A stretch of DNA of 48,178 nt from assembly GCA_023663345.1 (NCBI GenBank), contig JAMPHR010000002.1, positions 179,986 to 228,163 of the forward strand, read 5' to 3'. Source of the DNA: Paenibacillus sp. GTDB lineage: Bacteria; Bacteroidota; Bacteroidia; Bacteroidales; Muribaculaceae. The translations under genes and the position numbers were made by a program. The notes below the pieces were generated by a model. That model saw only the letters and a program-made list of their open reading frames with translations, searched no databases and was not told the origin of the DNA. Shown piece by piece: positions 14,656 through 29,281 of the stretch. Each line of letters starts with the position of its first letter. The first letter of the stretch is position 1.

Positions 14656-15996
14656 TCATTTCAGTATCCGGGTGAAGAGGTCGATGTATTTCTTCACCAC
14701 GACTTCGGGGGCGTAGATGCTCCTTACGGTGTCGTGCTGTACCTGACGCGGGACATCGGTCTCGAGGGCCCACATTACTCCGGCTGCCAGGTCGCGCGAG
14801 TTCTTGTATTCGGCCAGGTATCCGTTGACCTTGTGGGTGATGAGCTCGTCGTGGCCCGGGGCGTGGAAAGCCACCGGGGTGGCTCCGCCGGCCATTCCCT
14901 CGATGAGAGTGACGGGGATGTTCTCCATGATGGCCGGAGAGAGAATCACCTTGGCCGACGCATAGAGGTAGCGGAGTATCTTGTTGTCGTTGATGCGTCC
15001 GATCCAGCGGCCCGACATGCGGAGATTGTCGAGTATTCCGGGATCGGTCATGTCGCCGAAGAGGTAGACTGCGGCCTTGCTGGCAATGTCGGGGAAGTTG
15101 TCGAATATATGGTTGAGGGCTTCGATGGCATATCCGAGTCCCTTGTCGGCTCTGTCGAGGCTGCTTGCCCCCACGAGGATGAGATAGGGCTTGGTGGTGG
15201 TGAGCATCGAGTCGATATGCTTGACCGGGGTTGTATAGAAGTAGTCGACGTGGATGGGGTTATGGATAGTCATCACCGGCTTGCTGTGCAGGAGGGTGGA
15301 TGAGCGGGCCTTGAGCTCGAGGTGCTTGCTCTCGGCCACGAATGTGATGGGCACCCGGTCGTAGAGTTGGTGTTTCTTGTCCCAGAATATGCGCGAGAGG
15401 TCGTCGGGGTGGCCGCCGCCACGCAGAAACATGCAGTTGCCGCAACGGTCGGTATAGTATTCGCACACGCGTGAGTTGTGGCACACACCGGTGAAGGGCC
15501 ACATGTCGTGGAGGGTCCACACGATTTTCTTGCCCATCTCGTGGAGCCGGCGTATGCCACCAAGGTTGAGCAGTCCCTGGTTGATCCAATGGAGGCAGAT
15601 GATGTCGGCCTTTCTGGCCCACGGATGGTGGTGGATGTTCATGGCGAACCGGCCGGTGGAGACTGAGAATACGTTGTCCTTGCTGAACCCTCCGTGCCAC
15701 AGGATGTCGATGCGCTCCATGCAGTATCTGATACCACGCGGGAGACGTCCGCCCACACAAGCCACGTTGGGTTCGGATGATCTTTTGGTGTATACGAGCA
15801 TACGCGCGTCAATGCCTGCCCGCCTCATTGCCTGCATGAGACGGAAGGTGGCGCTTGCGGCTTCGCCGAGCGTGTCGCTGTGGTTCACGAGCAACACTTT
15901 TTTCCCCTTGAGCGATGGGGGAAGGACGGTGTTATCGGGAAGCTCCTGCTTTTGGCTTGGGTTGAGATTGTTTTTCGGAATTATCGGGTATGGCAT
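14656..15996 (-). CDS. Glycosyltransferase, GT-B fold (family 4-like)
   Basis: A 446-residue protein with two Rossmann-like halves. The N-terminal half (KKVLLVNHSDTLGEAASATF, KADIICLHWINQGLLNLGG, WTLHDMWPFTGVCHNSRVC) is typical of Bacteroidota glycosyltransferases that act on glycan precursors. The C-terminal half (YLILVGASSLDRADKGLGYA, VILSPAIMENIPVTLIEGMA followed by GGATPVAF) carries the EX7E-like donor site. A Cys cluster (CEYYTDRCGNCMFLRGGG) may bind metal. The ATG at 15996 makes a 65-nt overlap with the upstream DUF389 gene; a GTG further in, just before the conserved core, is an alternative start. Donor and acceptor are unknown. Confidence 0.85.
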   Translation of the reverse strand: MPYPIIPKNNLNPSQKQELPDNTVLPPSLKGKKVLLVNHSDTLGEAASATFRLMQAMRRAGIDARMLVYTKRSSEPNVACVGGRLPRGIRYCMERIDILWHGGFSKDNVFSVSTGRFAMNIHHHPWARKADIICLHWINQGLLNLGGIRRLHEMGKKIVWTLHDMWPFTGVCHNSRVCEYYTDRCGNCMFLRGGGHPDDLSRIFWDKKHQLYDRVPITFVAESKHLELKARSSTLLHSKPVMTIHNPIHVDYFYTTPVKHIDSMLTTTKPYLILVGASSLDRADKGLGYAIEALNHIFDNFPDIASKAAVYLFGDMTDPGILDNLRMSGRWIGRINDNKILRYLYASAKVILSPAIMENIPVTLIEGMAGGATPVAFHAPGHDELITHKVNGYLAEYKNSRDLAAGVMWALETDVPRQVQHDTVRSIYAPEVVVKKYIDLFTRILK

Positions 15997-17347: not shown

Positions 17348-17621
17348 TATTATTCGGCTTACGCCGAAGTTTATGAGTTTATAAGTTTATGGGTTTATAT
17401 TCGGCGAAGCCGAAGGTTATAAGGTTATGGGGTTATATTCAGCGGAGCTGAAGGTTATGGGGTTATGAGGTTATATTCAGTTGGCGTTGAAGGGTATGAG
17501 GGTATAAGGTTATTAGTGGTGGAGGGGGGGAGTTTATAAACTTATAAACCAATAAACTACGGCATTGCCGAATATAAACCTATAAACTTATAACCCTATA
17601 ACCTTCGGCTTTAGCCGAATA
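17348..17621. repeat. Palindrome-octamer repeat block 1 (mirror-symmetric)
   Basis: The whole gap between the Na/Pi gene and DUF389 is repeat. From the left: TTCGGC-ttac-GCCGAA (17353-17368), four octamers GTTTATRR/T, TTCGGC-gaa-GCCGAA (17400-17414), three GGTTATRR/T octamers, TTCAGC-gga-GCTGAA, three more octamers, then a degenerate palindrome TTCAGTTGGCGTTGAA. The right half is the reverse orientation: octamers TTATAAAC/TATAAACC, ACGGC-att-GCCG, more octamers, and TTCGGC-ttta-GCCGAA (17604-17619). The last palindrome lies 2 nt from the stop codon of the Na/Pi gene. Confidence 0.9.
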
Positions 17622-19454
17622 TTATCTTACGTGGGTTGCTACGGAGGATCTCATGAGGCCCTTGATTTCGTCGACAACGTTGATGATGTAGTCGCCAATC
17701 TTCTCGAGCGAGCCTACGACATCCATGTAGTAGATGCCGGCCTGGTACTCGTAGTGGTGGGCGTTGATATTGTCGATGTTGGAGGTGCGGAGCTGGTTGC
17801 GCATGTTGTTGATCTCGCGCTCATAGTTGTAGGAGGATATTATGTCCTTCTCCTCGGCGTGCTCGATGTCGCGCAGAAGGAGTATCTGGTTGGTCATGGC
17901 GGCCTCGACGGCTATGAAGAGCGAGTCGATGTTGTGGTAGATCTCGTCGTTGAACTGGGCGTTGCTCTCGCGCTTGCGTATGAGCACCTTGCCGATGCCG
18001 TAGCAGCAGTCGGCTATGCTCTCGATCTCGCTGACGATGCGGAGCATGGCGGCGATGCGGTGCTTGCCTTCGTTGGAGAGTCGGCCCTCGGAACAGCGGT
18101 TGAGGTAGTCGGCTATCTCGATCTCCATGCGGTCGCTTATCTCCTCGTATTTCTCGAGGCGTGAGAATTGCTTGGTGAATTCCTCGCTGTCGGTCTTGAC
18201 GTGGACTATGTTCTGGGCCATTCCCACCATGCGTTGCACGCGCTGGGAGTAGACCACGATCTCCTTCTCGGCCTGGGAGATGTTGAGCTCGGAGGCGCTC
18301 ATCATACCGCCCTGGATAAATTTGAGCTGGAATTCCTCCTCCTGGTTGGGCTTGGAGGGCACGAGTTTTTCCACGATCTTGACATATAGGCCGGTGAGCC
18401 ATATCATGATGGCGAGGTTGATGAGGTTGAACACGGTGTGGAACACCGAGAGGCCTATCGAGACGCTCTGCTGCATGGCGGCTATCTGGGTCGACACGGG
18501 GTGGCCGGCGGGGAGTGAGCCGTCAAAGAGGTGATTGTAGGTGTCGGGGTCGGTGGCCTCGATGTGGTTGACGAAGGCCGAGAGTGCTCCGGGGTCGCCC
18601 TGGCCGAGCTCCTCGGTGAGCCATTGGGCGAAGTGGCAGAAGGGGAAGAAGATGGCGAGGGTCCACACGGTGCCGAGAAAGTTGAAGAGCAGGTGGCCCA
18701 TGGCTGTGCGCTTGGCGGCGATGTTACCGCCCATGGATGCCATGAGAGGGGTGATGGTGGTACCGATGTTGGAGCCGAGCACGAGGGCGCAGGAGAGGTC
18801 AAAGTCGATCCAGCCCTTGCTGCACATGATGAGGGTGATGGCAAAGGTGGCGGCGCTCGACTGGATCACCATGGTGACCAAGAGGCCTACGAGGGTGAAT
18901 ATCAGCACCGAGCCGAATCCGAGGGAGGTGTATTTCTGCAGGAAGGCAAACATCTCGGGGTTGCTCTGCAGGTCGGGGACATAGGTGCTGATCATGTCGA
19001 GGCCCATGAAGAGGAAGGAGAATCCGATGAAGAATTCGCCTATCGACTTGTTGCGGCTGCTCTTGCTGAACAGTAGCGGGATGGATAGGCCTATGACGGG
19101 TAGGACGAAGGCCGAGATGTTGACCTTAAAACCAAAAAGAGCGATGACCCAGGCGGTGAATGTGGTGCCCACATTCGCGCCCATGATCACCGCCATGGAT
19201 TGGCCGAGCGACATGAGACCTGCGTTTACGAAACTCACCACCATCACGGTGGAAGCCGAGGAGCTCTGTATGAGAGCGGTGATGAGTATGCCCGTGAGTA
19301 GTCCGGTGAAGCGGTTTCGGGTCATGGCCGAAAGGATGTTTCTGAGGCGGTCGCCTGCGGCTTTCTGCAGGCCTTCGCTCATTACTTTCATGCCATAGAG
19401 GAACAATGCTACCGAGCCTAACAGGCACAGCAGATCTAAAAAACTGTAGCTCAT
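17622..19454 (-). CDS. Na/Pi cotransporter family protein with PhoU-like C-terminus
   Basis: A 610-residue inner-membrane protein. The two inverted NaPi repeats are visible: TALIQSSSASTVMVVSFVNA (about residues 60-79) with GANVGTTFTAWV, and VIQSSAATFAITLIM with GSNIGTTITPLMASMGGN. The QSSSA/QSSAA motifs form the sodium/phosphate site in this family. The C-terminal 220 residues are helical and PhoU-like (ISQAEKEIVVYSQRVQRMVG, ADCCYGIGKVLIRKRESNAQ). Likely phosphate or phosphonate uptake or efflux. A good promoter lies 66 nt upstream; the stop codon is followed within 2 nt by the intergenic repeat. Confidence 0.9.
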   Translation of the reverse strand: MSYSFLDLLCLLGSVALFLYGMKVMSEGLQKAAGDRLRNILSAMTRNRFTGLLTGILITALIQSSSASTVMVVSFVNAGLMSLGQSMAVIMGANVGTTFTAWVIALFGFKVNISAFVLPVIGLSIPLLFSKSSRNKSIGEFFIGFSFLFMGLDMISTYVPDLQSNPEMFAFLQKYTSLGFGSVLIFTLVGLLVTMVIQSSAATFAITLIMCSKGWIDFDLSCALVLGSNIGTTITPLMASMGGNIAAKRTAMGHLLFNFLGTVWTLAIFFPFCHFAQWLTEELGQGDPGALSAFVNHIEATDPDTYNHLFDGSLPAGHPVSTQIAAMQQSVSIGLSVFHTVFNLINLAIMIWLTGLYVKIVEKLVPSKPNQEEEFQLKFIQGGMMSASELNISQAEKEIVVYSQRVQRMVGMAQNIVHVKTDSEEFTKQFSRLEKYEEISDRMEIEIADYLNRCSEGRLSNEGKHRIAAMLRIVSEIESIADCCYGIGKVLIRKRESNAQFNDEIYHNIDSLFIAVEAAMTNQILLLRDIEHAEEKDIISSYNYEREINNMRNQLRTSNIDNINAHHYEYQAGIYYMDVVGSLEKIGDYIINVVDEIKGLMRSSVATHVR

Positions 19455-19520
19455 TGCGTTACGCGGTGTTTATGTGATGTGTGCAGGGTAGCTGGCCATA
19501 AAGCAGCCACTTCCCTGATG

Positions 19521-19551
19521 CAAAGATATAACATTTTTTATCATTTTCAAA
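19521..19551 (-). promoter_or_regulatory. Promoter of the Na/Pi gene
   Basis: On the minus strand, TTTG (19551-19548), a 19-nt spacer and TATCTTTG (19528-19521) match the Bacteroidota promoter consensus. The expected start of transcription is near 19,514, giving a leader of about 60 nt. This may serve the whole minus-strand cluster down to 12,159. Confidence 0.7.
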
Positions 19552-19942
19552 TATGTGCAAGGGTTGATTTATGATTAATTTTGCCGACACAAAAGTACGA
19601 CACCCGCAGCGGCTGGGTGGGTATGCTGAAAAGACGTTTTTCGTTGTATAGGCCCCGTTTTAATTTCTAAACTTCGCACCTTTAAAAATTAACCACAGAG
19701 GGGACAATCGGGAATGCGTCCACTTGAGGCTATATGCTTTCTTCTCCACGCGAGTGGGGGGAATGTCTATGCATATATCTTCTCGTGGGATGCTGCGGTT
19801 GTCAGTGTTTCATCTGTGGTAAGGTAGTGCGAAGACCTTGAAATTACGGGAGCATTGACACGGGATGCATCCCACGTTCTTTTCAGGGTAAAATATAATC
19901 AGGCTGGGGATGCGGCCAGGCATACCAAAACACATATAGAGT
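19552..19942. other. Intergenic region with repeated GGGATGC motifs
   Basis: No gene is seen between the divergent Na/Pi gene and the HTH gene. GGGATGC occurs three times on the plus strand (19787-19793, 19862-19868, 19907-19913). The middle copy is part of a perfect 12-bp palindrome GGGATGCATCCC (19862-19873). Two single -7-like boxes face each other (TAATTTTG at 19576-19583, plus; TACTTTTG at 19597-19590, minus), without clear -33 elements. The motif array could be operator sites for the HTH protein starting at 19943; that is inference. Confidence 0.4.
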
Positions 19943-20170
19943 ATGGAACCGATCGGCACAATGATCAAGGAGGAACTGGAGCGACAGGAGCGTAGCGTGT
20001 CATGGCTCGCGCGCAAATTGAGTTGCGACCGTTCGAATGTGTATCGGCTATTTCAGAAACATTCTATAGACACGGCGCTGCTTCAGCGCCTGTCGGTGAT
20101 ACTGAACAGGGATTTCTTTTCGGAACTGAGCAATAATTTTCAGAACCGTAAGGGAAAGGAAGAAGCCTGA
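19943..20170 (+). CDS. Small HTH (Cro/C1-like) DNA-binding protein
   Basis: The 75 residues are almost only a helix-turn-helix: MIKEELERQERSVSWLARKL and SCDRSNVYRLFQKHSIDTAL, then LLQRLSVILNRDFFSEL. SVSWLARKLSCDRSNVYRLF is the HTH with the recognition helix around SNVYRLF. There is no sensor domain. Such short proteins often act as autoregulators or remain from mobile elements. It stands alone, divergent from the Na/Pi gene, with a candidate operator array 30-155 nt upstream. Its target genes are unknown. Confidence 0.7.
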   Translation: MEPIGTMIKEELERQERSVSWLARKLSCDRSNVYRLFQKHSIDTALLQRLSVILNRDFFSELSNNFQNRKGKEEA

Positions 20171-20482
20171 CTTGAAGCATCCGGTGCAGTGGCCCGGAGA
20201 TTGTAAGGTTAAAAAGGAGTTATGAGGTTAACAGTTAGCTTCACAGCTCCACTATGGCCATTTGCCGTGATGGTTGAAAAGATAGTGGGAAACGAGGGGG
20301 TGATATATGCTTAGATGTCAATGTGCGGGCGAGGGGAGATGAGATTTGATGTAACGCTAAAGTGGTGTGATTGTATAACACTTGCGCTTTAGTGTTAGTG
20401 TGCAAATATAATGATTGGTGCCCGTTTTAGGAACGGTGTTAAAGATAATTAACATAAAACGGGGTGTTTTTGGGGCAGAGGG
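20171..20482. other. Intergenic stretch with an 11-bp inverted repeat and a minus-strand -7 box
   Basis: No gene is seen. TAACGCTAAAG (20352-20362) and CTTTAGTGTTA (20387-20397) form an inverted repeat with one mismatch. Immediately to the right, TATATTTG on the minus strand (20410-20403) fits the -7 consensus and would read into the inverted repeat and then antisense to the HTH gene. The -33 region is weak. A small RNA is possible but unproven. Confidence 0.3.
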
Positions 20483-20590
20483 TCTTGGGTTTAGTATAGA
20501 GGATCTTGGTTTAGTATAGAGGGGGAAGTATAGGCAATAGTTTTTTAGACCATGGGGCCTGAGGGTATTTGGGTTTTGACCAAAGGGCTA
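20483..20590 (+). repeat. Core element C, copy 1 (diverged)
   Basis: It begins with two direct repeats of TTTAGTATAGAGG (20490-20502 and 20510-20522). It continues GGGGAAGTATAGGCAATAG, then TTTAGACCATGGGGCCTGAGG and TTTTGACCAAAGGGC. The same order of words (TTTAGTATAGAGG, GAAAGTATAGAGTATAGCGA, TTAG, GRCCA) is found in copies at 26477-26588 (reverse) and 29075-29182. This copy lacks the neighbouring octamer tracts and has lost part of the right end. Confidence 0.6.
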
Positions 20591-20634
20591 TTTTTTGGAG
20601 AGATTGGATGTGTTGAGGACGTAATTGTGAGACG

Positions 20635-20776
20635 GGGATTTATAGGACGTCTTCGACGCCCGTTTCTGATGTATTTTCGTTGACCCCGCGCCTCCCGGGC
20701 TGTGCAAATCAGCCCTGTCGGGCGATTTGCGTGCCCGTCCGTGGCGGGGCTTCAATTACATCGCCGTTTCACGGCT
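20635..20776 (+). repeat. 142-bp structured dispersed repeat, copy 1
   Basis: It starts GGGGATTTATAGGACGTC and ends in GCCGTTTCACGGCT. The centre is a strong nested hairpin: CGGGC-GCAAATC-GCCC (20696-20714) against GGGC-GATTTGC-GCCCG (20720-20737). A near-identical copy lies at 25661-25803. The sequence contains an open frame, but the two copies are better explained by structure than by coding: paired positions change by wobble-preserving substitutions. There is no transposase nearby. Confidence 0.8.
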
Positions 20777-20810
20777 CGGAGGGTGGTGGGCTTGTGGGGA
20801 ACCCTCTATA

Positions 20811-21125
20811 TCATCCGAGTGCGATCTGCATATTTCCACAAGTGAGGGAAACGGTCATGCCGAGGGCGTGAAATGCTCTTATTATGGTGTTGATGGTCGG
20901 GTTGGCGCCACGTTCGATGCGACTGACCTGCGCTTTTTTTACACCCATTAGTTCTGCTAACTGCTCTTGTGTCATGTTGCGCTCTTTCCGGGCGGCTTTG
21001 ATGGCTTCGCCTATATGGTAAGATTGGATAGCCGCTCTTACTTCTGCGTCATAAGCGTCCCGACGGGGTGTGCCGACTTTGCCGAATATTCTATCTTCAA
21101 GCTCCTCAAAGGTTGTAAGTTTCAT
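20811..21125 (-). CDS. Orphan HigA-type antitoxin / XRE regulator
   Basis: A 104-residue protein. The N-terminus MKLTTFEELEDRIFGKVGTP and following RRDAYDAEVRAA resemble the HigA antitoxins that pair with Gp49-like/RelE toxins in Bacteroidales. The HTH is IKAARKERNMTQEQLAELMG with the recognition part VKKAQVSRIERG (about residues 63-74). In typical loci the toxin gene lies directly upstream. Here the upstream 460 nt have no reading frame for a toxin, only a promoter and a palindromic AT/GC element. It may act as a stand-alone autoregulated repressor or be a remnant. Confidence 0.75.
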   Translation of the reverse strand: MKLTTFEELEDRIFGKVGTPRRDAYDAEVRAAIQSYHIGEAIKAARKERNMTQEQLAELMGVKKAQVSRIERGANPTINTIIRAFHALGMTVSLTCGNMQIALG

Positions 21126-21154
21126 ATGTGCGGTATTATAGCTTGCTAATATTG

Positions 21155-21184
21155 CAAAGATACAAACAAGTCTACATATATAGA
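21155..21184 (-). promoter_or_regulatory. Promoter and possible operator of the HigA-like gene
   Basis: TATCTTTG on the minus strand (21162-21155) fits the Bacteroidota -7 box and puts the transcript start about 23 nt before the ATG. Overlapping the expected -33 area is the palindrome TCTA-CATATA-TAGA (21171-21184), a plausible site for autorepression. The -33 TTTG is poor. Confidence 0.5.
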
Positions 21185-21236
21185 AACTTTTGGGTGCGTA
21201 TTTTGTTCAGAGGTCTGTTTTTTATTATTATGTGTG

Positions 21237-21320
21237 CACCATACCTATATTATACACCATACCTATATTATATATGTACGCGCGGGCGCGTGTGTGCGTG
21301 GAATACATATATAATATAGG
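21237..21320. repeat. Tandem 18-mer and 17-bp perfect inverted repeat with GC-rich loop
   Basis: CACCATACCTATATTATA occurs twice in direct tandem (21237-21254, 21255-21272). The second copy flows into CCTATATTATATATGTA (21262-21278), whose perfect reverse complement is at 21304-21320. The 25-nt loop is almost purely alternating purine-pyrimidine GC (CGCGCGGGCGCGTGTGTGCG). It could extrude a cruciform, form a hairpin on RNA from either strand, or favour Z-DNA in the loop. It lies between the divergent HigA-like and collagen-like genes. Confidence 0.8.
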
Positions 21321-21436
21321 TGTAGGGGGGTGGGGTGGGGCGTGGAGATGTTAAAATAGGGGGTGTGTGCTTAAGATGCAACATTATCGTGTCAATCCCG
21401 CTACATGAATTTTGGGATACTGAATTTTCTTTGGCC

Positions 21437-21444
21437 TAACTTTG
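21437..21444 (+). promoter_or_regulatory. -7 box of the collagen-like lipoprotein gene
   Basis: TAACTTTG fits TAnnTTTG. A TTTG further upstream (21411-21414) has a somewhat long spacer of 22 nt. Transcription would start near 21,451, giving a leader of about 140 nt before the ATG at 21593. Confidence 0.55.
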
Positions 21445-21592
21445 TAGAGCCGTAAGCACCCTTATGCGAAGTAGTGTACGCGGCCATCACTGAATGCCAC
21501 CTAAACACTTGTGCAATAGACCCATGAACCTAAGGTGGCCTAAGTAGCAAAACAAATCTTTAACCAAAAGTTATAACTTAATCAATTCACGT

Positions 21593-24500
21593 ATGAACAA
21601 AAAATTCATCAATGGATTTCTGCTTGCTTCTCTCGTAGCAGGTTCAAGCAGTTTCCTCTCCTCTTGCAAGGATTACGATGATGACATCGACCAGCTCCGC
21701 ACGGAGGTGGCAGCCAACAAGACTGCGATCGATGACATTAACAGCAAGATTGCTGCAGGCGCTATCCTTGAGAGCGTAACCAAGAATGCCAACGGCATCA
21801 CTGTTACCGTGTCGAAGAATGGTCAGTCGCAGACCTACGACATCACCAACGGTACTAACGCCGATGTGTGGACAATCGAGAACACAGCTAACGGATACTT
21901 CTGGGCTAAGAACGGCACCGTTACCCAGTATCCCGCTCAGGGTCCCAAGGGTGACAAGGGCGATCAGGGTGAGCAGGGCGTTCCCGGAACTCCCGGCGCT
22001 CCCGGTGAGGCTGGCGCTCCCGGCGCAGCAGGTCCTCAGGGCCCCCAGGGTGTTCAGGGTAACTACTGGGCTCCTAACCAGGAAGGCACCAAGCTCATCG
22101 AGCATGTATGGAATGCCGAGACCAAGAAGTATGAGCCTACTGCCAACACTGTTGACATCGCTATAACAGTTCCCGGAAGCGAGACTCCCGATATTACCGC
22201 TGTTGTTGACGGTAGCTATGTATATCTTACAGGTGTTCAGACCGGCACCGTTGACGGCAAGCCCGTTTATGGCAGTGTCGCTATCTCGCGTAGCGGTCTT
22301 ATCACCGGCCTCGGTTTCATCCCCGACCTCTATCTCGATGGTGTTGAGGGTACCCGCTTCGGCTATGTAAGCGAAAACTACCTCGCCGCTGTTGCCACCG
22401 GCGCTACCGGTACTGCAACTTTCAACAATGCATCTGTTGATTTTGAGATCCCCGCTTCATCCAAGTGGGCATTCAACGAAAGCACTACTGCTTATCAGCT
22501 CAGCGAAAATGCAGTTGCCAACTTTGATCTCAACCCCGACAATGCTAACATTGACGGCGTGAAGTTCTCATTCCTGCCCATCGCCAACATCGAGCAGGTA
22601 TCTTCTCGTGCAGCTGCTCCCTCGCTCGTAGTAAAGAGCGCTGTTGCTGAGAATGGTAACCTCGCTGTTACATACAATGTGCAGAATCCTGCCTCTATGG
22701 CTTACACCACCGATGGCAAGAACACTCTGCCCATCACTGCTCTTACCGCTAACCTCAAGGCTAATGCCGAGGGTGAGTCTGACGTAGTTACTTCCGACTA
22801 CTACAGCCTCGTAATGTCTCAGGTTCAGTTCACCGCTATCAGCTTTATCCCTGCTACCACAACTGAGGACAAGCACCTTGCTCTCACCGGTAAGGCAGCT
22901 ATCGATCAGTCAGAGGGTAAGCTCGTTAAGGTCGCTTATACCCAGGCTCCTGAGAAGTATGACCTTTCCAAGAATATCCGCATCTGCTACAAGCAGGCTG
23001 ATTTCGGCAAGGATCTTGACAATGCCACCGAGAAGCAGATGTCCCTCAAGGAGGCTGCTGACAAGTGGGGTCTCACTGTTACCTACTCGATGATGAACTA
23101 CTTCGCTGGTGAGTCCAAGACCAATGACTCTCAGTATGCATCAATCGACGCAAACGGTGTTCTTGATCTCAAGTATCGCGATGCCAACAACCAGTGGGTA
23201 TCTTGCGGTGACAACGACGCTTCCCGCTCGGCTATCGGCCGTCACCCCGTAGTGATGGTTAACGTATGCAACGGTAACAACGTTGTACTCGCCGGCTACG
23301 TTCTCTTTGAGATTACTGACGTTACTGTAACTCCCGAGATCTCCAATACCGGTATCGTACTTGCTCAGGGCGAGCCCATGCCTTACCTCTGCACTTCTGA
23401 CAAGAAGGTAGTAAGCACTTGGGAGACCACTACAAGCCAGGTACTTTCAGTTCTCGGTATGAGCGAGGCTCAGTTCAAGGAGCAGTACACACTCGCCGCT
23501 AACGAGACTTACGTTAAGGCTGCTAACTGGACTGCAGAGAAGCAGGCATTTACTCAGGTTGCCAACAACAAGTATGGTATCCTCAATTACAACCCCGATT
23601 CTCAGGCCGGTCCTACCAACGGCTTCCTTACCTGGAACTACACTCTTGCAGCTGCAACTGAAATTGCTAAGGATTATGGCAAGGCCGGTGAGTCCGCTAC
23701 TGTAGAGCTCTTCGTTAAGTTTGTTCGCACTAACAATCCTGACGATTGCCTCTTCCTCGGTGTTTCGATCACTATCCTCCCCGCTCCTTCCGTAACTTAC
23801 GGAACTATCAATCCCAACCTCCTCGTAGCCGGAACTACCAACCAGGTTGGTATGAGCACCCTTCAGGTGAGCAACGCTCTTGGTAAGGATGTTACCTACT
23901 TCGAGGCTCTTCTCGAGAGCTACTATAAGGACAACAAGATCACTCCTGCCTACATCGGTCAGACCGGAGCTAAGTATCCTGCTGTTGCTGACATCATCTG
24001 CCCCTTCGCTTACTCATTCGATGCCACCCAGATGGCCGGCCTCACTGTAAGCGTTGACAAGCTCACTCTTATGAAGGGTACCGCTACTGTTGCCACTGTA
24101 AATGCTACAACCGGTAATGTTAAGTTCGCTCACACAGCTGCCGCTCTCGAGCTCCTTAACAGCGCAAACGGTGTATATGCTAATGTACGTTTCGATGCCA
24201 AGTACTGCAATGAGACTGTAGATCCCGCTGAGGCAGAGCTCGAGTTCACCAAGCAGGAGAACAATGTGGTTCGCATCAACTTCCGCAAGCCTGTTACCGT
24301 AACCGGTGTTAACAACTACGTAGTAAGCCCCAACGGTCTCGATCCTAAGAAAGAGGAACTCGGTAACTTCTTCTCGATGGTTGACTACTTCGGTAATCCC
24401 CTTTTCATGAAGTCTGCCAATGGTTCTTATGTTGCCAACAAGACTCAGGCTGGTCAGGACGTATTCGAGTGGTATCAGATCTCCGAGATCAAGATCGATC

Positions 24501-24760
24501 TTACCGGTCTCTCTGAGAATGGTGTTACCTTCGATGTAGAGAATGCAACTTCTAAGGCTGGTGAGGTTTATACCGTTGCTCCTGCTACCACCAGTGGTGT
24601 ACTCGATGTTGATGTACTCAATGATGTCAAGATCGTATGCGACTACAAGACCACAATCCTTGAGCAGGCAATCACTGTTAAGGTTCCTGTAACTGTAACT
24701 TACTACTGGGGTACTCAGAAGGTTGAGGCTACGGTTACTGTAAAGCCTTTCAAGAAGTAA
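21593..24760 (+). CDS. Large surface lipoprotein with coiled coil and collagen-like segment
   Basis: A 1,055-residue protein. The signal peptide ends in a lipobox (SFLSSC, lipidated Cys25), followed by acidic KDYDDDID and a short coiled coil (about residues 30-53). A small beta-like domain (about 60-112) precedes 13 uninterrupted Gly-X-Y triplets (residues 117-155, GPKGDKGDQGEQGVPGTPGA and on). The remaining 900 residues look like repeated beta-sandwich modules with no known catalytic motif. The N-terminal part resembles what is often labelled a PL29-lyase N-terminal domain in Bacteroidales lipoproteins; there is no evidence of lyase activity. Inference: a trimeric, surface-exposed fibre. Its codons resemble those of the ribosomal genes, suggesting strong expression. 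Confidence 0.85.
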   Translation: MNKKFINGFLLASLVAGSSSFLSSCKDYDDDIDQLRTEVAANKTAIDDINSKIAAGAILESVTKNANGITVTVSKNGQSQTYDITNGTNADVWTIENTANGYFWAKNGTVTQYPAQGPKGDKGDQGEQGVPGTPGAPGEAGAPGAAGPQGPQGVQGNYWAPNQEGTKLIEHVWNAETKKYEPTANTVDIAITVPGSETPDITAVVDGSYVYLTGVQTGTVDGKPVYGSVAISRSGLITGLGFIPDLYLDGVEGTRFGYVSENYLAAVATGATGTATFNNASVDFEIPASSKWAFNESTTAYQLSENAVANFDLNPDNANIDGVKFSFLPIANIEQVSSRAAAPSLVVKSAVAENGNLAVTYNVQNPASMAYTTDGKNTLPITALTANLKANAEGESDVVTSDYYSLVMSQVQFTAISFIPATTTEDKHLALTGKAAIDQSEGKLVKVAYTQAPEKYDLSKNIRICYKQADFGKDLDNATEKQMSLKEAADKWGLTVTYSMMNYFAGESKTNDSQYASIDANGVLDLKYRDANNQWVSCGDNDASRSAIGRHPVVMVNVCNGNNVVLAGYVLFEITDVTVTPEISNTGIVLAQGEPMPYLCTSDKKVVSTWETTTSQVLSVLGMSEAQFKEQYTLAANETYVKAANWTAEKQAFTQVANNKYGILNYNPDSQAGPTNGFLTWNYTLAAATEIAKDYGKAGESATVELFVKFVRTNNPDDCLFLGVSITILPAPSVTYGTINPNLLVAGTTNQVGMSTLQVSNALGKDVTYFEALLESYYKDNKITPAYIGQTGAKYPAVADIICPFAYSFDATQMAGLTVSVDKLTLMKGTATVATVNATTGNVKFAHTAAALELLNSANGVYANVRFDAKYCNETVDPAEAELEFTKQENNVVRINFRKPVTVTGVNNYVVSPNGLDPKKEELGNFFSMVDYFGNPLFMKSANGSYVANKTQAGQDVFEWYQISEIKIDLTGLSENGVTFDVENATSKAGEVYTVAPATTSGVLDVDVLNDVKIVCDYKTTILEQAITVKVPVTVTYYWGTQKVEATVTVKPFKK

Positions 24761-24787
24761 ACTAACTTTAATTAGTTGATATCTGTG

Positions 24788-24820
24788 GAAGAGCACTGAT
24801 AGCTACAGTCAGTGCTCTTC
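24788..24820 (+). terminator. Hairpin after the collagen-like gene
   Basis: GAAGAGCACTGA (24788-24799) pairs perfectly with TCAGTGCTCTTC (24809-24820) around TAGCTACAG. The following sequence is TCTCAGTATATT, only weakly T-rich, so termination may be partial and the next lipoprotein gene, 23 nt further on, may be read through. Confidence 0.7.
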
Positions 24821-24843
24821 TCTCAGTATATTACAGTTAAGAT

Positions 24844-25368
24844 ATGAAAAAGTTATTCGCGATATTTGCCGTTGGACTGCTTGTGTGGTCCTGTGGAGGC
24901 AACTCGGAAAAACAAGTAAAGACATTCAGTGATGTAGAACAGGAATTTACGTCCACTCTGACGGAAGCAGACACCGCGATGGTGCTTGCCATGGGCAATC
25001 AGTTTCTGGACAGCATACGTTCGGGCAACGTAGCATGGTCGCTCGATCAGCTGAACGAGATTGATTCGGTGGGCGCGATTGTCCCGATAAACACGTCGAC
25101 GCGCGAGCGTCTGGAGGCGCGTTTCAGGAATTTCCCGGTCGTAGACTACGAGCTCGATTACTATGCGTTTTCGCTATCGGGGTTGAACGATCTGAAGTAC
25201 CGGACGTATTTCCAGCCGAGCGAATCCAGGGAGGCAGGAGCTCCCGGGATGTCGATGATGTTTAATCCGGTCAAGAAGGATGGAGAATGGTATCTGTGTC
25301 TGAAGGAGGCTGGACAGCCTGCAAAGGATGCGTCAAGTGCCATTGATCCAAGGACAATAGTTGAGTAA
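24844..25368 (+). CDS. Lipoprotein of unknown function
   Basis: The 174-residue protein starts MKKLFAIFAVGLLVWSC, a type II signal peptide with lipidated Cys17. The mature part has a helical acidic segment (EKQVKTFSDVEQEFTSTLTE) and ends with a compact domain containing YFQPSESREAGAPGMSMMFN followed by KDGEWYLCLKEA. I do not recognise a family. It follows the collagen-like gene after a hairpin and is closed by a clear terminator, so it may be co-transcribed at a lower level. It could be an accessory of that surface protein, but nothing beyond position suggests this. Confidence 0.8.
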   Translation: MKKLFAIFAVGLLVWSCGGNSEKQVKTFSDVEQEFTSTLTEADTAMVLAMGNQFLDSIRSGNVAWSLDQLNEIDSVGAIVPINTSTRERLEARFRNFPVVDYELDYYAFSLSGLNDLKYRTYFQPSESREAGAPGMSMMFNPVKKDGEWYLCLKEAGQPAKDASSAIDPRTIVE

Positions 25369-25402
25369 CAACCTATCTCCACACATTAAAATCCAATATG
25401 TC

Positions 25403-25440
25403 GTCCCGGACGTCGTTGAGAAACGATGCCGGGATTTTTT
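25403..25440 (+). terminator. Rho-independent terminator
   Basis: GTCCCGGACGTCGTT (25403-25417) pairs, with two mismatches, with AACGATGCCGGGAT (25422-25435), followed by TTTTTT. It ends the lipoprotein transcript and lies just before repeat block 2. Confidence 0.85.
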
Positions 25441-25445
25441 ATCTA

Positions 25446-25490
25446 TTCATCCCGGGGGGATGAAGGTTATGGGGTTATGAGGTTATGGGG
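25446..25490 (+). repeat. Palindrome-octamer repeat block 2
   Basis: The palindrome TTCATCCC (25446-25453) / GGGATGAA (25457-25464) differs in sequence from the usual TTCGGC type but keeps its pairing. It is followed by GGTTATGG, GGTTATGA, GGTTATGG octamers and then GTTAAGACCAGAG, which resembles the edge of core element C seen in block 4. Confidence 0.8.
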
Positions 25491-25660
25491 GTTAAGACCA
25501 GAGTTGTTGTGGCTCTTGGAGTGCCAACTTGCGGTAAAATAACACGATGTATTGACCAAGGAATCTACGCAATATACAATTGTTATATGATAGGGACAGA
25601 GGGGGATTATTAGGGGGACGGATGGGTGTGGGGATTAGGGTTGTTTGTACATGTGGGCAT
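25491..25660. other. Intergenic stretch, little recognised
   Basis: Between block 2 and the second 142-bp repeat I see only a fragment resembling core element C (GACCAGAG near 25496 and TTGACCAAGGAATC near 25553) and G-rich sequence. No gene, RNA or clear promoter. Confidence 0.4.
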
Positions 25661-25803
25661 GGGGAATTATAGGACGTCTTCGACGCCCGGATTGGTGCGC
25701 GTTTCGTTGACCCCATGCCTCCCGGGCTACGCAAATCTGCCCTGGCGGGCGATTTGTTTGCCCGGTCGTGATGGGGCTATAATTGCATCGCCCTTTCAGG
25801 GCT
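25661..25803 (+). repeat. 142-bp structured dispersed repeat, copy 2
   Basis: Begins GGGGAATTATAGGACGTC and ends GCCCTTTCAGGGCT. The central nested hairpin CGGGC-GCAAATC-GCCC / GGGC-GATTTGT-GCCCG is kept: the T for C change in the right arm leaves a G-T pair. The final small stem GCCC-TTTCA-GGGC differs from copy 1 (GCCG-TTTCA-CGGC) by a compensating pair change. Roughly 75-80% identical to 20635-20776 by eye. Confidence 0.8.
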
Positions 25804-25833
25804 TTGTGGGTGTGAAGTCTAAACATAAACTTT

Positions 25834-25992
25834 AAAACCCTCATAAACCAATAAACTTGTAAACCAAATAAACCTGTAAACTCATAAACCCATAAACCTA
25901 TAAACTTTTTCCTATACCATAACCTTATAACCATATAACCTTCGGCTCTGCCGAAGATAACTAACCTTTGGCGTATGCCAAATAAGTTTAAA
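25834..25992 (-). repeat. Palindrome-octamer repeat block 3
   Basis: Octamers in the reverse sense (ATAAACCC, ATAAACCT, ATAAACTT and similar, then AACCTTAT, AACCATAT) lead to TTCGGC-tct-GCCGAA (25941-25955). After GATAACTAACC comes a second, different palindrome, TTTGGC-gtat-GCCAAA (25977-25992). This ends 9 nt before the -7 box of the first DUF1573 gene. Confidence 0.85.
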
Positions 25993-26001
25993 ATATTTTT
26001 G

Positions 26002-26009
26002 TATCTTTG
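26002..26009 (+). promoter_or_regulatory. -7 box of the first DUF1573 gene
   Basis: TATCTTTG matches TAnnTTTG. Transcription would begin near 26,016, only about 9-15 nt before the start codon, a nearly leaderless message. No good -33 TTTG is present at the right distance; the repeat palindrome TTTGGCGTATGCCAAA lies in that area instead. Confidence 0.55.
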
Positions 26010-26024
26010 TGAGTTATTCAAAAT

Positions 26025-26405
26025 ATGAGTATGAAACGAATAATCCTGATATTGCTTGTGGCTATGGTTTCGATAGGGGCTTGGGCCAAGGGGGACGCGC
26101 AGTTTGCGTCGCGGGAGCATGATTTCGGTACCATCAAGGCTAAAGGTGGTGCCGTGACCGCTACTTACGAGTTCACTAACACGGGCGATGAGCCTATCAG
26201 CATCGTGACGGTGACCAACGGCGGGTGTGGTTGCACTAAGCCGTCGTTTCCGCTCGAACCGATAGCTCCGGGCAAGACGGGCAAGATTAAGGTGTCGTTC
26301 AACCCGGCGACGTTCAAGGGGGAGTTTCACCGTAGCGTGAAGGTGCAGTTCAGCTACAGCCGTAAACGCACGGTGCTGAAATTCAATGGCGTAGTAGTGC
26401 CTTAA
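26025..26405 (+). CDS. DUF1573 domain protein (exported)
   Basis: The 126-residue protein has a signal peptide (MKRIILILLVAMVSIGAWA; the ATG at 26031 is an equally good start) and one immunoglobulin-like DUF1573 domain. Typical words are HDFGTIKAKGGAVTATYEFT, the Cys motif GGCGCTKPSFPLEPIAPGKT, and KVSFNPATFKGEFHRSVKV. These proteins are common in Bacteroidota envelopes; their function is not established. A larger DUF1573 protein follows 190 nt downstream, so the two probably work together or derive from duplication. The stop codon is followed with no gap by a repeat palindrome. Confidence 0.88.
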   Translation: MSMKRIILILLVAMVSIGAWAKGDAQFASREHDFGTIKAKGGAVTATYEFTNTGDEPISIVTVTNGGCGCTKPSFPLEPIAPGKTGKIKVSFNPATFKGEFHRSVKVQFSYSRKRTVLKFNGVVVP

Positions 26406-26475
26406 TTCGGCGGAGCCGAGGTTTATGGGTTTATAGGTTTATAGGTTTATAAGTTTATGGGTTTATAAGTTTATG
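26406..26475 (+). repeat. Palindrome-octamer repeat block 4
   Basis: TTCGGC-gga-GCCGAG starts at the base after the DUF1573 stop codon. Seven perfect-phase octamers follow (GTTTATGG, GTTTATAG twice, GTTTATAA, GTTTATGG, GTTTATAA, GTTTATGT). The block then joins core element C in reverse orientation. Confidence 0.9.
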
Positions 26476-26476
26476 T

Positions 26477-26588
26477 TTAGACCATAGAACCAAAGATCAA
26501 TAATAATTAAGCCAATATAGTCCTATGGCTCTTTGGTCAAGAAATCTAATCGCTATACTCTATACTTTCCCCTCTATACTTAAAAGTA
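26477..26588 (-). repeat. Core element C, copy 2 (reverse orientation)
   Basis: Read on the minus strand it runs TTTTAAGTATAGAGGGGAAA, GTATAGAGTATAGCGATTAG, GACCAAAGAGCCATAGGACT, and ends TTGATCTTTGGTTCTATGG. This aligns over its whole length, with a few gaps, to 29075-29182 on the plus strand. Its end abuts the start of the second DUF1573 gene, so it must contribute to that gene's leader. Confidence 0.8.
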
Positions 26589-26595
26589 ATAAAAG

Positions 26596-27672
26596 ATGAA
26601 TAGAAGAATATTGGCGCCGTTGGTGGCTTTTGTGGCTTGGGTGGGTGCCGTGGGTCAGAATGTGTGGCTCGAGAAGGTGCATGATTTCGGTGCCTTTGAT
26701 GAGGATATGGGCACGGTGTATTGCGAGTTTAAGCTCGTGAACAACGGCTCGGAGCCTCTGGCCATCACCGGGGCGCGGGCCAATTGCGGTTGCACCCGTC
26801 CCGAGTTCTCGACCGCGCCTGTGGCTCCGGGTGATACTGCCGTGATCAGGGTGGGTTTTGACCCCAAGGGGAGGCCGGGACGCTTCAAGAAGCGCATCAA
26901 CGTGGATTGCAGCGCCGAGCCTACGCGCACGTCGCTCACGATCACTGGCACGGTGATAGGGTCGTCCAACACGCTCAAGAGCCGTTATCCGGTGGCTGTG
27001 GGGCCTGTGAGGCTGAGGTCGAATGTGATAGCCTACGGCAAGGTGCTCAAGGGGGAGACCATGGGGCAGTATGTGGATGCCTACAATGCGTCGGGCGATA
27101 CGCTGAGACCGCGAGTGGAGGGTGCGCCCAAGTATATCCACACTATAGTCCAGCCCAAGGTGGTGCCTCCGGGCGAGCAGTTTATCGTGTCGACGGTGCT
27201 TCACAGCAATGAGACTCCGAGCTGGGGCATAACCACTGATTCGCTGACGTTCTATCCCGACGCGCGGTCGACGGAGAGCAAGACCATAGAGACTGTGGTG
27301 ATACTGGAGGAGAATTTCTCGAAGCTCACGGCCGAGCAACTGACCAAGGCTCCGGTGCTGGATACCGACGTGACGGCCATAGACCTGAAACAGCTGTCGA
27401 AGAGCGCGAAACCGTTTACCGAGCATTTCACCATCACCAACCGTGGCAAGAGCCCGCTTGTGATACGTGCGATATCGTGTCCCGATCCGGCGGTGGAGGT
27501 GACTATGAAGGATAAGACCATCAAGCCGGGCAAGAGTGCGCGGGTGGATGTGACCATCACGCCGGCTAAGATAAAGAGCAATGAGCTGCTCAACGCGCGC
27601 ATAAATATCATAGCCAACGATCCAGCGCATCCATCGACAATGGTACGAGTGGTAGGAGAGATAATCGGCTGA
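26596..27672 (+). CDS. DUF1573 domain protein, multi-domain (exported)
   Basis: A 358-residue protein with signal peptide MNRRILAPLVAFVAWVGAVG. The first DUF1573 domain is clear: HDFGAFDEDMGTVYCEFKLV, then NCGCTRPEFSTAPVAPGDTA and RVGFDPKGRPGRFKKRINV. A middle beta domain and a C-terminal Ig-like domain (FTITNRGKSPLVIRAISC, IKPGKSARVDVTITPAK) follow. The C-terminal domain lacks the double-Cys motif. Likely periplasmic; function unknown. The last three codons plus stop form a palindrome of the repeat system (27661-27681), so the gene's 3' end appears to be made by the repeat. Confidence 0.85.
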   Translation: MNRRILAPLVAFVAWVGAVGQNVWLEKVHDFGAFDEDMGTVYCEFKLVNNGSEPLAITGARANCGCTRPEFSTAPVAPGDTAVIRVGFDPKGRPGRFKKRINVDCSAEPTRTSLTITGTVIGSSNTLKSRYPVAVGPVRLRSNVIAYGKVLKGETMGQYVDAYNASGDTLRPRVEGAPKYIHTIVQPKVVPPGEQFIVSTVLHSNETPSWGITTDSLTFYPDARSTESKTIETVVILEENFSKLTAEQLTKAPVLDTDVTAIDLKQLSKSAKPFTEHFTITNRGKSPLVIRAISCPDPAVEVTMKDKTIKPGKSARVDVTITPAKIKSNELLNARINIIANDPAHPSTMVRVVGEIIG

Positions 27673-27870
27673 GCCGATTATATTCGGCGGAGCCGAAGGT
27701 TATAAGTTTATAAGGTTATAGGTTTATAAGTTTATGGCTTCGCTCCCACCGATTGACCCTGTAATCATCAGCAACCCTGAATATTTTTCAACTCATAAAC
27801 CCTTCAACCCATAAACTTATAAACTTCGGCTCTGCCGAATATAACCTCATAAACTTCGGCGTAAGCCGAA
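27661..27870. repeat. Palindrome-octamer repeat block 5 (mirror-symmetric)
   Basis: Left arm: ATAATCGGC-TGA-GCCGATTAT (27661-27681), whose loop is the stop codon; TTCGGC-gga-GCCGAA (27683-27697); then octamers GGTTATAA, GTTTATAA, GGTTATAG, GTTTATAA, GTTTATGG. A 50-nt unrelated centre follows. Right arm: reverse octamers (ATAAACCC, ATAAACTT), TTCGGC-tct-GCCGAA (27825-27839), more octamers, and TTCGGC-gtaa-GCCGAA (27855-27870), 8 nt before the meaB ATG. Confidence 0.9.
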
Positions 27871-27878
27871 TAAAAGCC

Positions 27879-28976
27879 ATGGAACATATAGAGAACGACG
27901 AGAAGTATAACGGCCTGACCGTGAATCAGGGGGTGGCCCAGCCTCCCGTAGTGAATCCTTATCTGCAACGCCGCCGTCCACGGCGTATGCCCTCGGCGGG
28001 CGATATGGTGGAGGGGATATTGAAGGGCGACGTGACCATGCTTTCGAGGGCTGTGACGCTCGTCGAGAGTCTGTCGCCCGACCATCAGACTCTGGCCCAG
28101 GAGGTGATAGAGAAGTGTCTGCCCCACTCGGGCAACTCGCGCCGTATAGGCATCACCGGTGTGCCGGGGGCGGGCAAGAGTACGTCGATCGACGTGTTTG
28201 GCCTCCATGTGCTCAAGCAGGGTGGCAAACTTGCTGTGCTCGCCATCGACCCGTCGAGCGAGCGCACCAAGGGGAGTATCCTTGGCGATAAGACGAGGAT
28301 GGAGAAGCTGTCGGTGCATCCGTCGGCGTTCATCCGCCCCAGCCCGTCGGCGGGATCGCTCGGCGGGGTGGCCCGCAAGACCCGCGAGACCATAGTGCTG
28401 TGTGAGGCGGCGGGATATGACAATATTTTTGTGGAGACCGTGGGTGTGGGACAGAGCGAGACTGCCGTTCACTCGATGGTGGATTTCTTCCTGCTGATAC
28501 AGCTTGCCGGCACGGGCGATGAGCTTCAGGGCATAAAGCGTGGTATCATGGAGATGGCCGACGGCATAGTGATCAATAAGGCCGACGGCGACAATGTGCA
28601 ACGCGCCCAGCTTGCGGCGGCACAGTTCCGCAGTGCGTTGCATCTGTTTCCCACGCCGGCGTCGGGGTGGACACCCGAGGTGCTGACCTATTCGGGCTAT
28701 TATGAGCTTGGCATCGATAAGGTGTGGGATATGATAGACCGCTATTTCGCGTTTGTGAAGGAGAACGGATATTTCGACCGCAAGCGCAGCGAGCAGGCTC
28801 GCTACTGGATGTATGAGACGATAGACTCGCAGTTGCGCTCGCATTTCTATAACAACCCCGAGATAGAGCGTATGCTTGCCGAGAAGGAGGTAAAGGTGCT
28901 GAACAATCAGCTCAGCTCGTTCATTGCCGCCCGCGACGTCCTCGATCGGTATTATTCAGCTCTTTTCAAGAGCTGA
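27879..28976 (+). CDS. meaB: Methylmalonyl-CoA mutase-associated GTPase MeaB
   Basis: A G3E-family GTPase that guards cobalamin loading of methylmalonyl-CoA mutase. The 365 residues show Walker A GVPGAGKST (94-102), then VLAIDPSSERTKGSILGDKT and RMEKLSVHPSAFIRPSPSAG. Switch/Walker B FVETVGVGQSE and the guanine-specificity NKAD (IVINKADGDN) follow. The C-terminal helical dimerisation arm ends the protein. Length is normal (320-370). The mutase genes are not in the window. Start ATG follows a repeat palindrome by 8 nt; the stop TGA (28974-28976) lies inside the arm of another palindrome. Confidence 0.93.
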   Translation: MEHIENDEKYNGLTVNQGVAQPPVVNPYLQRRRPRRMPSAGDMVEGILKGDVTMLSRAVTLVESLSPDHQTLAQEVIEKCLPHSGNSRRIGITGVPGAGKSTSIDVFGLHVLKQGGKLAVLAIDPSSERTKGSILGDKTRMEKLSVHPSAFIRPSPSAGSLGGVARKTRETIVLCEAAGYDNIFVETVGVGQSETAVHSMVDFFLLIQLAGTGDELQGIKRGIMEMADGIVINKADGDNVQRAQLAAAQFRSALHLFPTPASGWTPEVLTYSGYYELGIDKVWDMIDRYFAFVKENGYFDRKRSEQARYWMYETIDSQLRSHFYNNPEIERMLAEKEVKVLNNQLSSFIAARDVLDRYYSALFKS

Positions 28977-29281
28977 AGGTTATAAGGTTATATTCGGCGG
29001 AGCCGAAGGTTAGGAGGTTATGGGTTTATAGGTTTAGGAGTTTATAGGTTTAGGGGTTGACCAGAGATCCAAAGTTTTAGTATAGAGGCGAAAGTATAGA
29101 GTATAGCGATTAGTTATTTAGTCCAACTGGCCTAAGGCTATATCGGATGAATTATATTGATCTCTGGTTCTATGGTCAATCTATAAACCCATAAACCTAT
29201 AAACTCCTAACCCCTTAACCTTATAACCTTCGGCTCTGCCGAATATAACCCCATAACCTTCGGTGCTCGAAGAGCGCCGAA
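28955..29281. repeat. Palindrome-octamer repeat block 6 (complete mirror element with core C)
   Basis: The most complete copy. Order: TTCAGCTCTT-ttc-AAGAGCTGAA (28955-28977, overlapping the meaB stop), two octamers, TTCGGC-gga-GCCGAA (28993-29007), about six octamers, core element C (29056-29182). Then reverse octamers, TTCGGC-tct-GCCGAA (29230-29244), two reverse octamers, and TTCGGTGCTC-gaa-GAGCGCCGAA (29259-29281). The gldE promoter starts 7 nt further on. Confidence 0.9.
29056..29182 (+). repeat. Core element C, copy 3
   Basis: GTTGACCAGAGATCCAAAG at the left and GATCTCTGGTTCTATGGTCA at the right are imperfect inverted ends. Between them lie TTTTAGTATAGAGGCGAAAG, TATAGAGTATAGCGATTAG and CTATATCGGATGAATTATAT. 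It matches copy 2 (26477-26588, reversed) throughout. No coding capacity. Confidence 0.8.

Follow-up and report, generated by a model that had tools for sequence, protein, structure and literature searches.

Octamer-and-hairpin blocks between genes of a Muribaculaceae genome and their likeness to intervening-sequence elements

Six blocks of short tandem repeats occupy gaps between genes in a 48,178-nucleotide stretch of contig JAMPHR010000002.1 (here the window), part of a genome deposited as Paenibacillus sp. and placed by GTDB in the Muribaculaceae (assembly GCA_023663345.1; hereafter G000, 2.64 Mb in 22 contigs, 86.6% complete). Each block combines hairpins with tandem copies of the octamer GKTTATRR, whose two orientations we write '>' and '<'. 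Outside the window, the same octamers stand inverted on both sides of a gene for the 23S-rRNA intervening-sequence protein (IVP, also called S23p; profiles PF05635 and TIGR02436). On balance, we favor reading the blocks as non-autonomous, gene-less relatives of a mobile element of the intervening-sequence (IVS) type.

Six blocks and their grammar

The sequence confirmed all six blocks at the places given in a preliminary description of this DNA, which had overlooked two word families, GACCAGAGATC... and AGTATAGAG..., lying beside and inside the blocks at about 26,477-26,580 and 29,056-29,178. The blocks and these further words are as follows:

17353..17619, no strand assigned: block 1, between a DUF389 gene start on one side and a Na/Pi cotransporter gene end on the other; left '>' arrays after hairpins TTCGGCTTACGCCGAA, TTCGGCGAAGCCGAA and TTCAGCGGAGCTGAA and an imperfect hairpin, right '<' arrays and hairpins
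25446..25488, plus strand: block 2, hairpin TTCATCCCGGGGGGATGAA and then three GGTTATRR octamers
25834..25982, minus strand: block 3, '<' octamers (GTTTAT, with GGTTAT closest to the hairpin) up to hairpins TTCGGCAGAGCCGAA (25941-25955) and TTTGGCATACGCCAAA (25967-25982)
26406..26476, plus strand: block 4, hairpin TCGGCGGAGCCGA, which adjoins the TAA of a DUF1573 gene on its downstream side, and then seven GTTTATRR-type octamers
26477..26580, no strand assigned: further words adjoining block 4, namely arms of the form GACCATAGAACCAAAGATC ... CTCTTTGGTC and, in inverted orientation, the AGTATAGAG word (CTCTATACT)
27661..27870, no strand assigned: block 5, a hairpin with the stop codon of a second DUF1573 gene (27,661-27,681), hairpin TTCGGCGGAGCCGAA, '>' octamers, '<' octamers and two hairpins, the last ending 8 nt upstream of the MeaB start
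28955..29281, no strand assigned: block 6, a hairpin with the MeaB stop codon (28,955-28,977), '>' octamers with another hairpin, other words nested inside, then '<' octamers with their hairpins
29056..29178, no strand assigned: words nested within block 6, with GACCAGAGATC ... GATCTCTGGTTCTATGGTC arms around AGTATAGAG words

The gap at 19.5-21.6 kb also contains, at 20490-20560, decayed AGTATAGAG and GACCA words that resemble the ones next to block 4 and within block 6.

The octamer is far commoner than chance. Single exact octamers number 53 in the window, 46 of them inside the six blocks, which total 1,085 bp, and the tandem pair (GKTTATRRGKTTATRR) gave 52 window matches at up to two mismatches against a shuffle mean of 0.36. 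The genome-wide search that the same description had proposed returned 303 pair matches in G000 with at most one mismatch allowed; the reversed pattern matched once. Its right-hand limit for the repeat tract held, no pair match ending beyond 29,258; one weak match at 15,250 lies ahead of block 1. Above gathering score, Rfam found two tRNAs in the window and no match for the blocks. When blocks 1, 5 and 6 were folded as RNA, each was predicted to form one long stem (z -9.84, -11.62 and -15.47, respectively).

We then followed arrays of at least three octamer units through 448,178 bases of G000, made up of the window and 20 stretches of 20 kb picked partly around the genome pair matches. This sample holds 54 arrays; a single Markov draw gave none, and reversing the sequence gave 1. 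Merging arrays less than 400 bp apart, which makes one cluster of blocks 2 and 3, yields 31 clusters, 30 of which overlap called genes by at most 20 bases (the calls come from a simple open reading frame (ORF) caller, which missed the IVP gene described below). The mirror-image order noted for the window proved general: 10 of the 11 clusters with both orientations run strictly '>' then '<', and the exception (L046:4009) has an additional 2-unit match within a called ORF. Among the 20 single-orientation clusters, 18 read '>' and 2 read '<'. On contigs C11, C15 and C16 such clusters lie mostly where the plus strand is G-rich, with contig orientation uncontrolled; a link to replication direction is possible, as a lead only.

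A perfect hairpin of at least 5 bp immediately precedes 39 of the 54 arrays, as compared with 3 to 10 of 54 at shifted positions. The preliminary description had octamers directly following a palindrome, which fits these 39 but not the other 15, nearly all of them of the GTTTAT type. Its usual palindrome fared less well: the full TTCGGC...GCCGAA form occurs in 10 of the 39 hairpins, which comprise 35 different strings, a few of them with a core in common. Since 30 of the 39 nonetheless read TT...AA, it is the stem that is conserved, while its sequence varies. One place (L008, G000:C15:575,370-575,490) has three consecutive head-to-tail copies of a 41-bp unit made of hairpin TTCGGCTTCGCCGAA plus three octamers, suggesting duplication of entire hairpin-plus-word modules. 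At L010, L024, L025, L028, L030 and L057 in G000, some of them at contig ends, a longer repeat runs from ATAATGGCTCCTGCCC... to ...CATGTTCTTTTTTACCATGAACAC with an octamer block within; it is perhaps a compound or mobile unit.

Clustered intergenic palindromes arranged in mirror pairs recall repetitive extragenic palindromic (REP) sequences and bacterial interspersed mosaic elements (BIMEs), spread by a REP-associated tyrosine (RAYT, Y1) transposase, the kind of helper for which the preliminary description had suggested looking. The transposase family PF01797 was indeed found in the octamer-bearing relatives G117, G046, G030, G100, G096 and G101. REPs, however, share one palindrome and come without tandem 8-mers, whereas the blocks have tandem words and no palindrome common to their 35 hairpin strings. 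Further, a search of 16 genomes found PF01797 in 8 but not in G000, the richest in octamers (86.6% complete). We therefore regard a RAYT origin as the least probable of the readings considered here.

Stem-loops placed directly past some stop codons could instead be intrinsic transcription terminators carrying a species-specific tail, as the preliminary description had also entertained. Between 17,300 and 29,400, terminator-like sites number 10 against 10.0 expected, and two of the ten are block hairpins; most block hairpins have the form TT-stem-AA and lead into an octamer, not into the T run that follows the GC-rich stem of a terminator. This makes terminators a highly improbable explanation.

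The hairpins do favor gene borders. The stop codons of MeaB and DUF1573, and one near 17,310 in L045, lie inside hairpins, and 16 of 38 hairpin-bearing arrays are within 15 nt of a gene end. Of 25 genes that have an array near the stop, 15 also have a hairpin of at least 6 pairs there, against 17 of 300 without an array; near the start the figures are 6 of 15 and 10 of 310. Such placement would suit a selected, immobile binding array or gene-border module that serves a nucleoid- or RNA-binding protein or protects mRNA ends. Against this, array orientation is independent of gene orientation across the G000 clusters, 16 of 38 arrays have a gene start, not a stop, as their closest outer gene end, the octamer pair is absent from 12 of 16 sampled relatives in the genus, and several relatives carry different words, by eye, after the MeaB stop. 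We give a selected module of this kind little credence.

Other accounts of the placement were considered and set aside. Pre-existing stop-codon hairpins as a target were rejected in view of the rarity of hairpins at array-free stops, and at the MeaB stop itself a 5-7 bp hairpin occurs in 9 of 26 orthologues, none of which has the 10-bp hairpin of G000. Rho (rut) sites came into question since the C-rich strand of the octamer has no G, but the arrays do not keep to the strand of the genes, and this account was rejected. Snap-back copying of a gene end, which would derive the palindromes from the flanks, is a further conceivable origin of the hairpins.

An intervening-sequence protein gene between octamer arrays

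In the relatives G046 and G099, and in G000 itself, inverted octamer arrays enclose one and the same small ORF. This ORF matches PF05635 and TIGR02436, the profiles of the IVP or S23p family; the protein is a four-helix bundle with solved structures among its relatives (2rld and 2gsc, the latter being XCC0516). In G000, the single detected PF05635 gene lies outside the window at C16:89007-89324 (L055), within a gene-bearing copy spanning about 88,955-89,406 that has GTTTAT octamers, inverted, on both sides. In the predicted fold of this locus, the arrays pair into a stem whose loop contains the ORF (z -3.99). The window blocks themselves hold no IVP ORF by PF05635 at an E value of 0.001.

Inward-pointing octamer arrays on both sides of IVP genes are also present in G099, G117 and G046; in G030 they lie 3' of the gene, and a contig end cuts off the opposite flank. 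All four exact octamer pairs of the G099 genome surround its IVP gene, indicating that an array can accompany its gene. The hairpins recur as well. In G117 hairpin TTTAATTTTCTGCGAAAATTAAA leads into the octamers at the IVP gene, and in G204 and G207, where the word is a different one, the arms of the IVP gene are built of hairpin-plus-word modules (for example GGCCTTGCGGCC and AAGGTTTAAAGTTTA, about 29 bp apart) that follow the same grammar as the window. The nested AGTATAGAG word of block 6 is the word that flanks an IVP gene in the relative G034.

A likeness of IVP to Avd, the accessory protein of diversity-generating retroelements (DGRs), is stated in the sections of PMC10053308 cited here, and the IVP ORFs show this remote relationship through matches to NF033474 and bAvd PF22296 that fall below curated cut-offs. 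Together with the templated look of the tandem words, this raises the idea that the repeats are written by a DGR- or telomerase-like reverse transcriptase with IVP as its Avd-like partner. The reverse transcriptase family RVT_1 (PF00078), searched in 20 genomes and found in 10, including G117 and G034, was not found in G000 (86.6% complete) or in G046 and G030, two genomes with octamer-flanked IVP genes that are both 99% complete. Templated writing of the repeats is thus very unlikely.

Word arms and word copy number in other genomes

Most other PF05635 genes above the cut-off are likewise flanked, by eye, by inverted word arrays. The words are 7-8 nt long and vary from locus to locus, among them GTATAGAG, GGGTTAA, AGTGGCAA, AATTGAAA, AATTTAAA, GTTTTTA and AAGGTTTAAAGTTTA. 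To put this on a numerical footing, the 300-base upstream flank of each IVP gene was aligned to its reverse-complemented 300-base downstream flank, the scores being those of local alignments of low-complexity DNA, and compared with mismatched flank pairs (3,000 for named genomes and 574 cross-genome pairs for the family). Of 80 named-genome loci, 78 were usable; 57 of these score above the 95th percentile of mismatched pairs and 38 above the 99th, with a mean of 23.8 against 12.1 for mismatched pairs, and 50 have z >3 against shuffles of their own flanks. By contrast, of 166 ORFs at these loci other than the IVP genes, 26 passed the 95% line and 11 the 99% line, and the 95% line was passed by 2 of 24 MeaB control loci; some of the 26 passing ORFs perhaps share a gap with the IVP gene. 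The passing IVP loci span about 10 phyla, judged by record titles. The strongest flank period among the 57 is 7 in 24 loci, 8 in 6 and another value in 4, with none clear in 23.

Within the family, 30 PF05635 matches lie above the cut-off, and two (L116, L118) were dropped at contig edges. Nineteen of 25 loci pass the 95% line and 7 the 99% line. A further three (L120, L121 and L247, in G161, G090 and G206) encode longer PF05635-like proteins (186 and 249 aa) barely above the cut-off and have word arrays upstream only, CTCCCAAAA-type in L120 and L121, which is an arrangement of a different kind.

Some IVP copies outside G000 also lie between protein genes. A Rhodanobacter IVP gene stands between short GGGAATC-type arms (L219, score 18). 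Among 28 cyanobacterial plasmid records, 10 have IVP genes; 5 of the 10 loci score >17, 4 more have short arms by eye and L233 has none. Neighbors of these plasmid genes include cas6/cas4 (two loci), cmr2/cmr3 (one) and two ribonucleotide reductase genes (one), those at L231, L235 and L236 lying within CRISPR operons. A large survey lists the 23S rRNA IVP among CRISPR associations in the part cited here (PMC10910872), an association that the cas-operon genes on cyanobacterial plasmids may explain.

If the words travel with IVP genes, their copy number should follow those genes, and for the three words counted, in a comparison set of one genome per species, it does so unevenly and with exceptions. 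Of 198 family genomes, 40 have the octamer pair, and 27 of these 40 have just one or two copies. The four highest counts are those of G000 (143), G117 (60), G046 (37) and G030 (15), and each of these genomes has an octamer-flanked IVP gene, that of G030 on its one observed side. In 27 genus genomes, AAAGTATAGAGTATAG is most frequent in G034 (88), G201 (52), G000 (48), G196 (20) and G199 (13); the G034 IVP gene carries AAAGTATAGAGTATAG, and the control word count in G034 is 0. A prediction made for AAGGTTTAAAGTTTA, the word at the G204 and G207 IVP genes, held: these genomes have 58 and 35 copies, as compared with 11 in G117 and at most 4 in each of the other 24, with control counts of at most 3.

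The gap downstream of the MeaB stop, where block 6 lies in G000, differs among 26 relatives: several have other word arrays by eye (GGGGACATAGGGACAAAAG in G054, AGTCAAGAGTCGAGAGTCG in G184, AATTTAAAAATTTAAAATGG in G142, GTTTAAAGTTTAGGGC in G204), others have none, and the next gene varies. Long inverted word arms in gaps beside MeaB were also observed at L062, L063 and L067 (G130, G054 and G034), for example GGGGACATAGGGACAAAAGAAGCAGAAGGGACGG and its complement in G054. The different words after MeaB and the word families nested in block 6 together look like repeated landing at gene ends and inside earlier copies.

The nested words can be turned around, however, if the arrays are independent repeats in which IVP elements merely prefer to land. 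Other words within octamer block 6 would fit this, as would arrays for which no IVP gene with the same word was detected (those of G130 and G196, and the AGTATAGA word in G000). It accounts poorly for G099, where every exact octamer pair is at the IVP gene, and for matched flanks in some ten phyla whose words differ. We consider a mere landing preference unlikely.

A proposed element and its relatives

Our favored reading, that the blocks are gene-less relatives of an IVS-type element, can be put as follows. The gene-bearing form would consist of inward-pointing tandem 7-8 nt words, one small IVP/S23p four-helix-bundle gene and the same words inverted, with hairpins, in several genomes of this genus, at its outer ends or between runs of words. 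In a transcribed gap the inverted arms would pair into one long stem whose loop holds the gene or nothing, as in 23S rRNA IVSs, and we propose that such a stem makes insertion tolerable beside genes; RNase III perhaps cuts it. An IVP oligomer, the candidate binder, would recognize the arms or the hairpins and help host replication or repair enzymes to copy the element into gaps next to gene ends; copies that lack the gene but have the right word would be mobilized in trans. The preliminary description had offered three guesses. A mobile or amplifying non-coding element fits best, in that word and mirror layout are shared with the IVP arrays and copy number is uneven among relatives, although movement itself is inferred; a binding array, with IVP as the candidate binder, is possible.

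Several observations weigh against this reading. No insertion event was observed among the genomes compared, one per species. The matched-flank test fails at 21 of 78 named-genome loci and at the three borderline matches in longer frames (scores 10, 9 and 8), which bring the family figure to 19 of 28, and 5 of the 10 cyanobacterial plasmid loci do not exceed the score given above. Matching 7 of 8 octamer positions also picks out L130, L240, L242 and L244, whose words look different by eye. Word and gene do not always coincide: G100, G101 and G096 have 6-9 octamer pairs and no octamer-flanked IVP gene above cut-off, and G130 (99% complete) has word arrays by eye and no PF05635 match. The prediction that the AGTATAGA-rich G201, G199 and G196 would have an IVP gene with that word held in one of three, G201; the G199 gene has another word, and G196 (87% complete) has no IVP match. 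In G000, the 48 copies of the AGTATAGA word accompany no detected IVP gene carrying it, so that the nested AGTATAGAG word, unlike the octamer arrays, does not share the word of the genome's own IVP gene. Outer hairpins at IVP loci of named genomes, found at 2 of 86 edges against 4 and 4 in controls, are not above background; the hairpin thus seems specific to the version in this lineage, and we rejected it as a general part of IVP elements outside this family. Finally, the Coxiella burnetii S23p is reported, in the sections cited here, as probably not made in vivo (PMC4990558).

The C. burnetii element is also the closest known parallel. As described in those sections, its 23S IVS has an S23p ORF preceded by two or three tandem heptamers and one degenerate copy, is bounded by terminal inverted repeats that form a 28-bp stem, and is excised by RNase III; the same source describes both IVS elements and S23p as selfish or of unknown role (PMC4990558). 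A stem with an ORF in its loop is the anatomy of the 23S IVS, and on this ground we read the blocks as gene-less intergenic relatives of IVS-type elements: the gene-bearing copies share with 23S IVSs the S23p/PF05635 ORF, the stem-closing inverted repeats and short tandem words by the ORF. They differ in that the blocks lie in gaps between protein genes rather than in a 23S rRNA helix, the word has 8 nt, most copies lack the ORF, copy number is high and there are extra hairpins. Excision by RNase III is known for 23S IVSs; for the blocks, RNase III is a candidate processing enzyme.

Similar word arrays have been described singly. Rehm et al. (2015) report arrays of the heptamer GGGAATC in Xanthomonas and of GGGGA(C/T)T in Nostoc as G-quadruplex repeats, generally not associated with mobile elements; the main text does not contain the terms 'helix' or 'S23', and the parts cited here make no IVP link (PMC4692102). 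Like the blocks, these arrays are intergenic tandem words in high copy, with convergent pairs in Xanthomonas as far as the cited text describes them, but their word has 7 nt rather than 8. The short tandemly repeated repetitive (STRR) sequences of filamentous cyanobacteria are, in the passages cited, usually 7-bp repeats with function unknown (PMC2670836). They resemble the blocks as hairpin-forming tandem heptamers in gaps, and half of the ten cyanobacterial plasmid IVP genes stand by score between inverted word arms; they differ in unit length and words, the unit here having 8 bp and the host not being a cyanobacterium. The earlier claim that no described family has this layout therefore stands in part: tandem heptamers and convergent arrays are in print one by one, in the parts of these sources cited (PMC4692102, PMC2670836, PMC4990558), and we found no paper joining the cases. 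In open-licence PMC full texts, preprints excluded and most papers screened by title and opening of the abstract, no description linking IVP genes to inverted word arrays in gaps was found.

Taken more broadly, these cases may form an unrecognized, phylum-spanning class of mobile elements, a proposal that we advance tentatively and rate a little short of an even chance. S23p/IVP would be its only protein and inverted arrays of lineage-specific 7-8 nt words its ends, and it would move without encoding any known transposase, recombinase or reverse transcriptase. Gene-less copies would make up much unexplained intergenic tandem repeat (STRRs, the xanthomonad GGGAATC arrays, the octamer blocks), and 23S IVSs would be the case in which the element sits in an rRNA helix. 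If true, this would be a new kind of mobile DNA without a recognizable enzyme. The short tandem word arrays of cyanobacteria and xanthomonads, described without an origin in the texts cited above, would find one in IVP elements. And if one small protein does tie IVS elements and word arrays together, a single gene and a single word in each species would suffice to test both questions.

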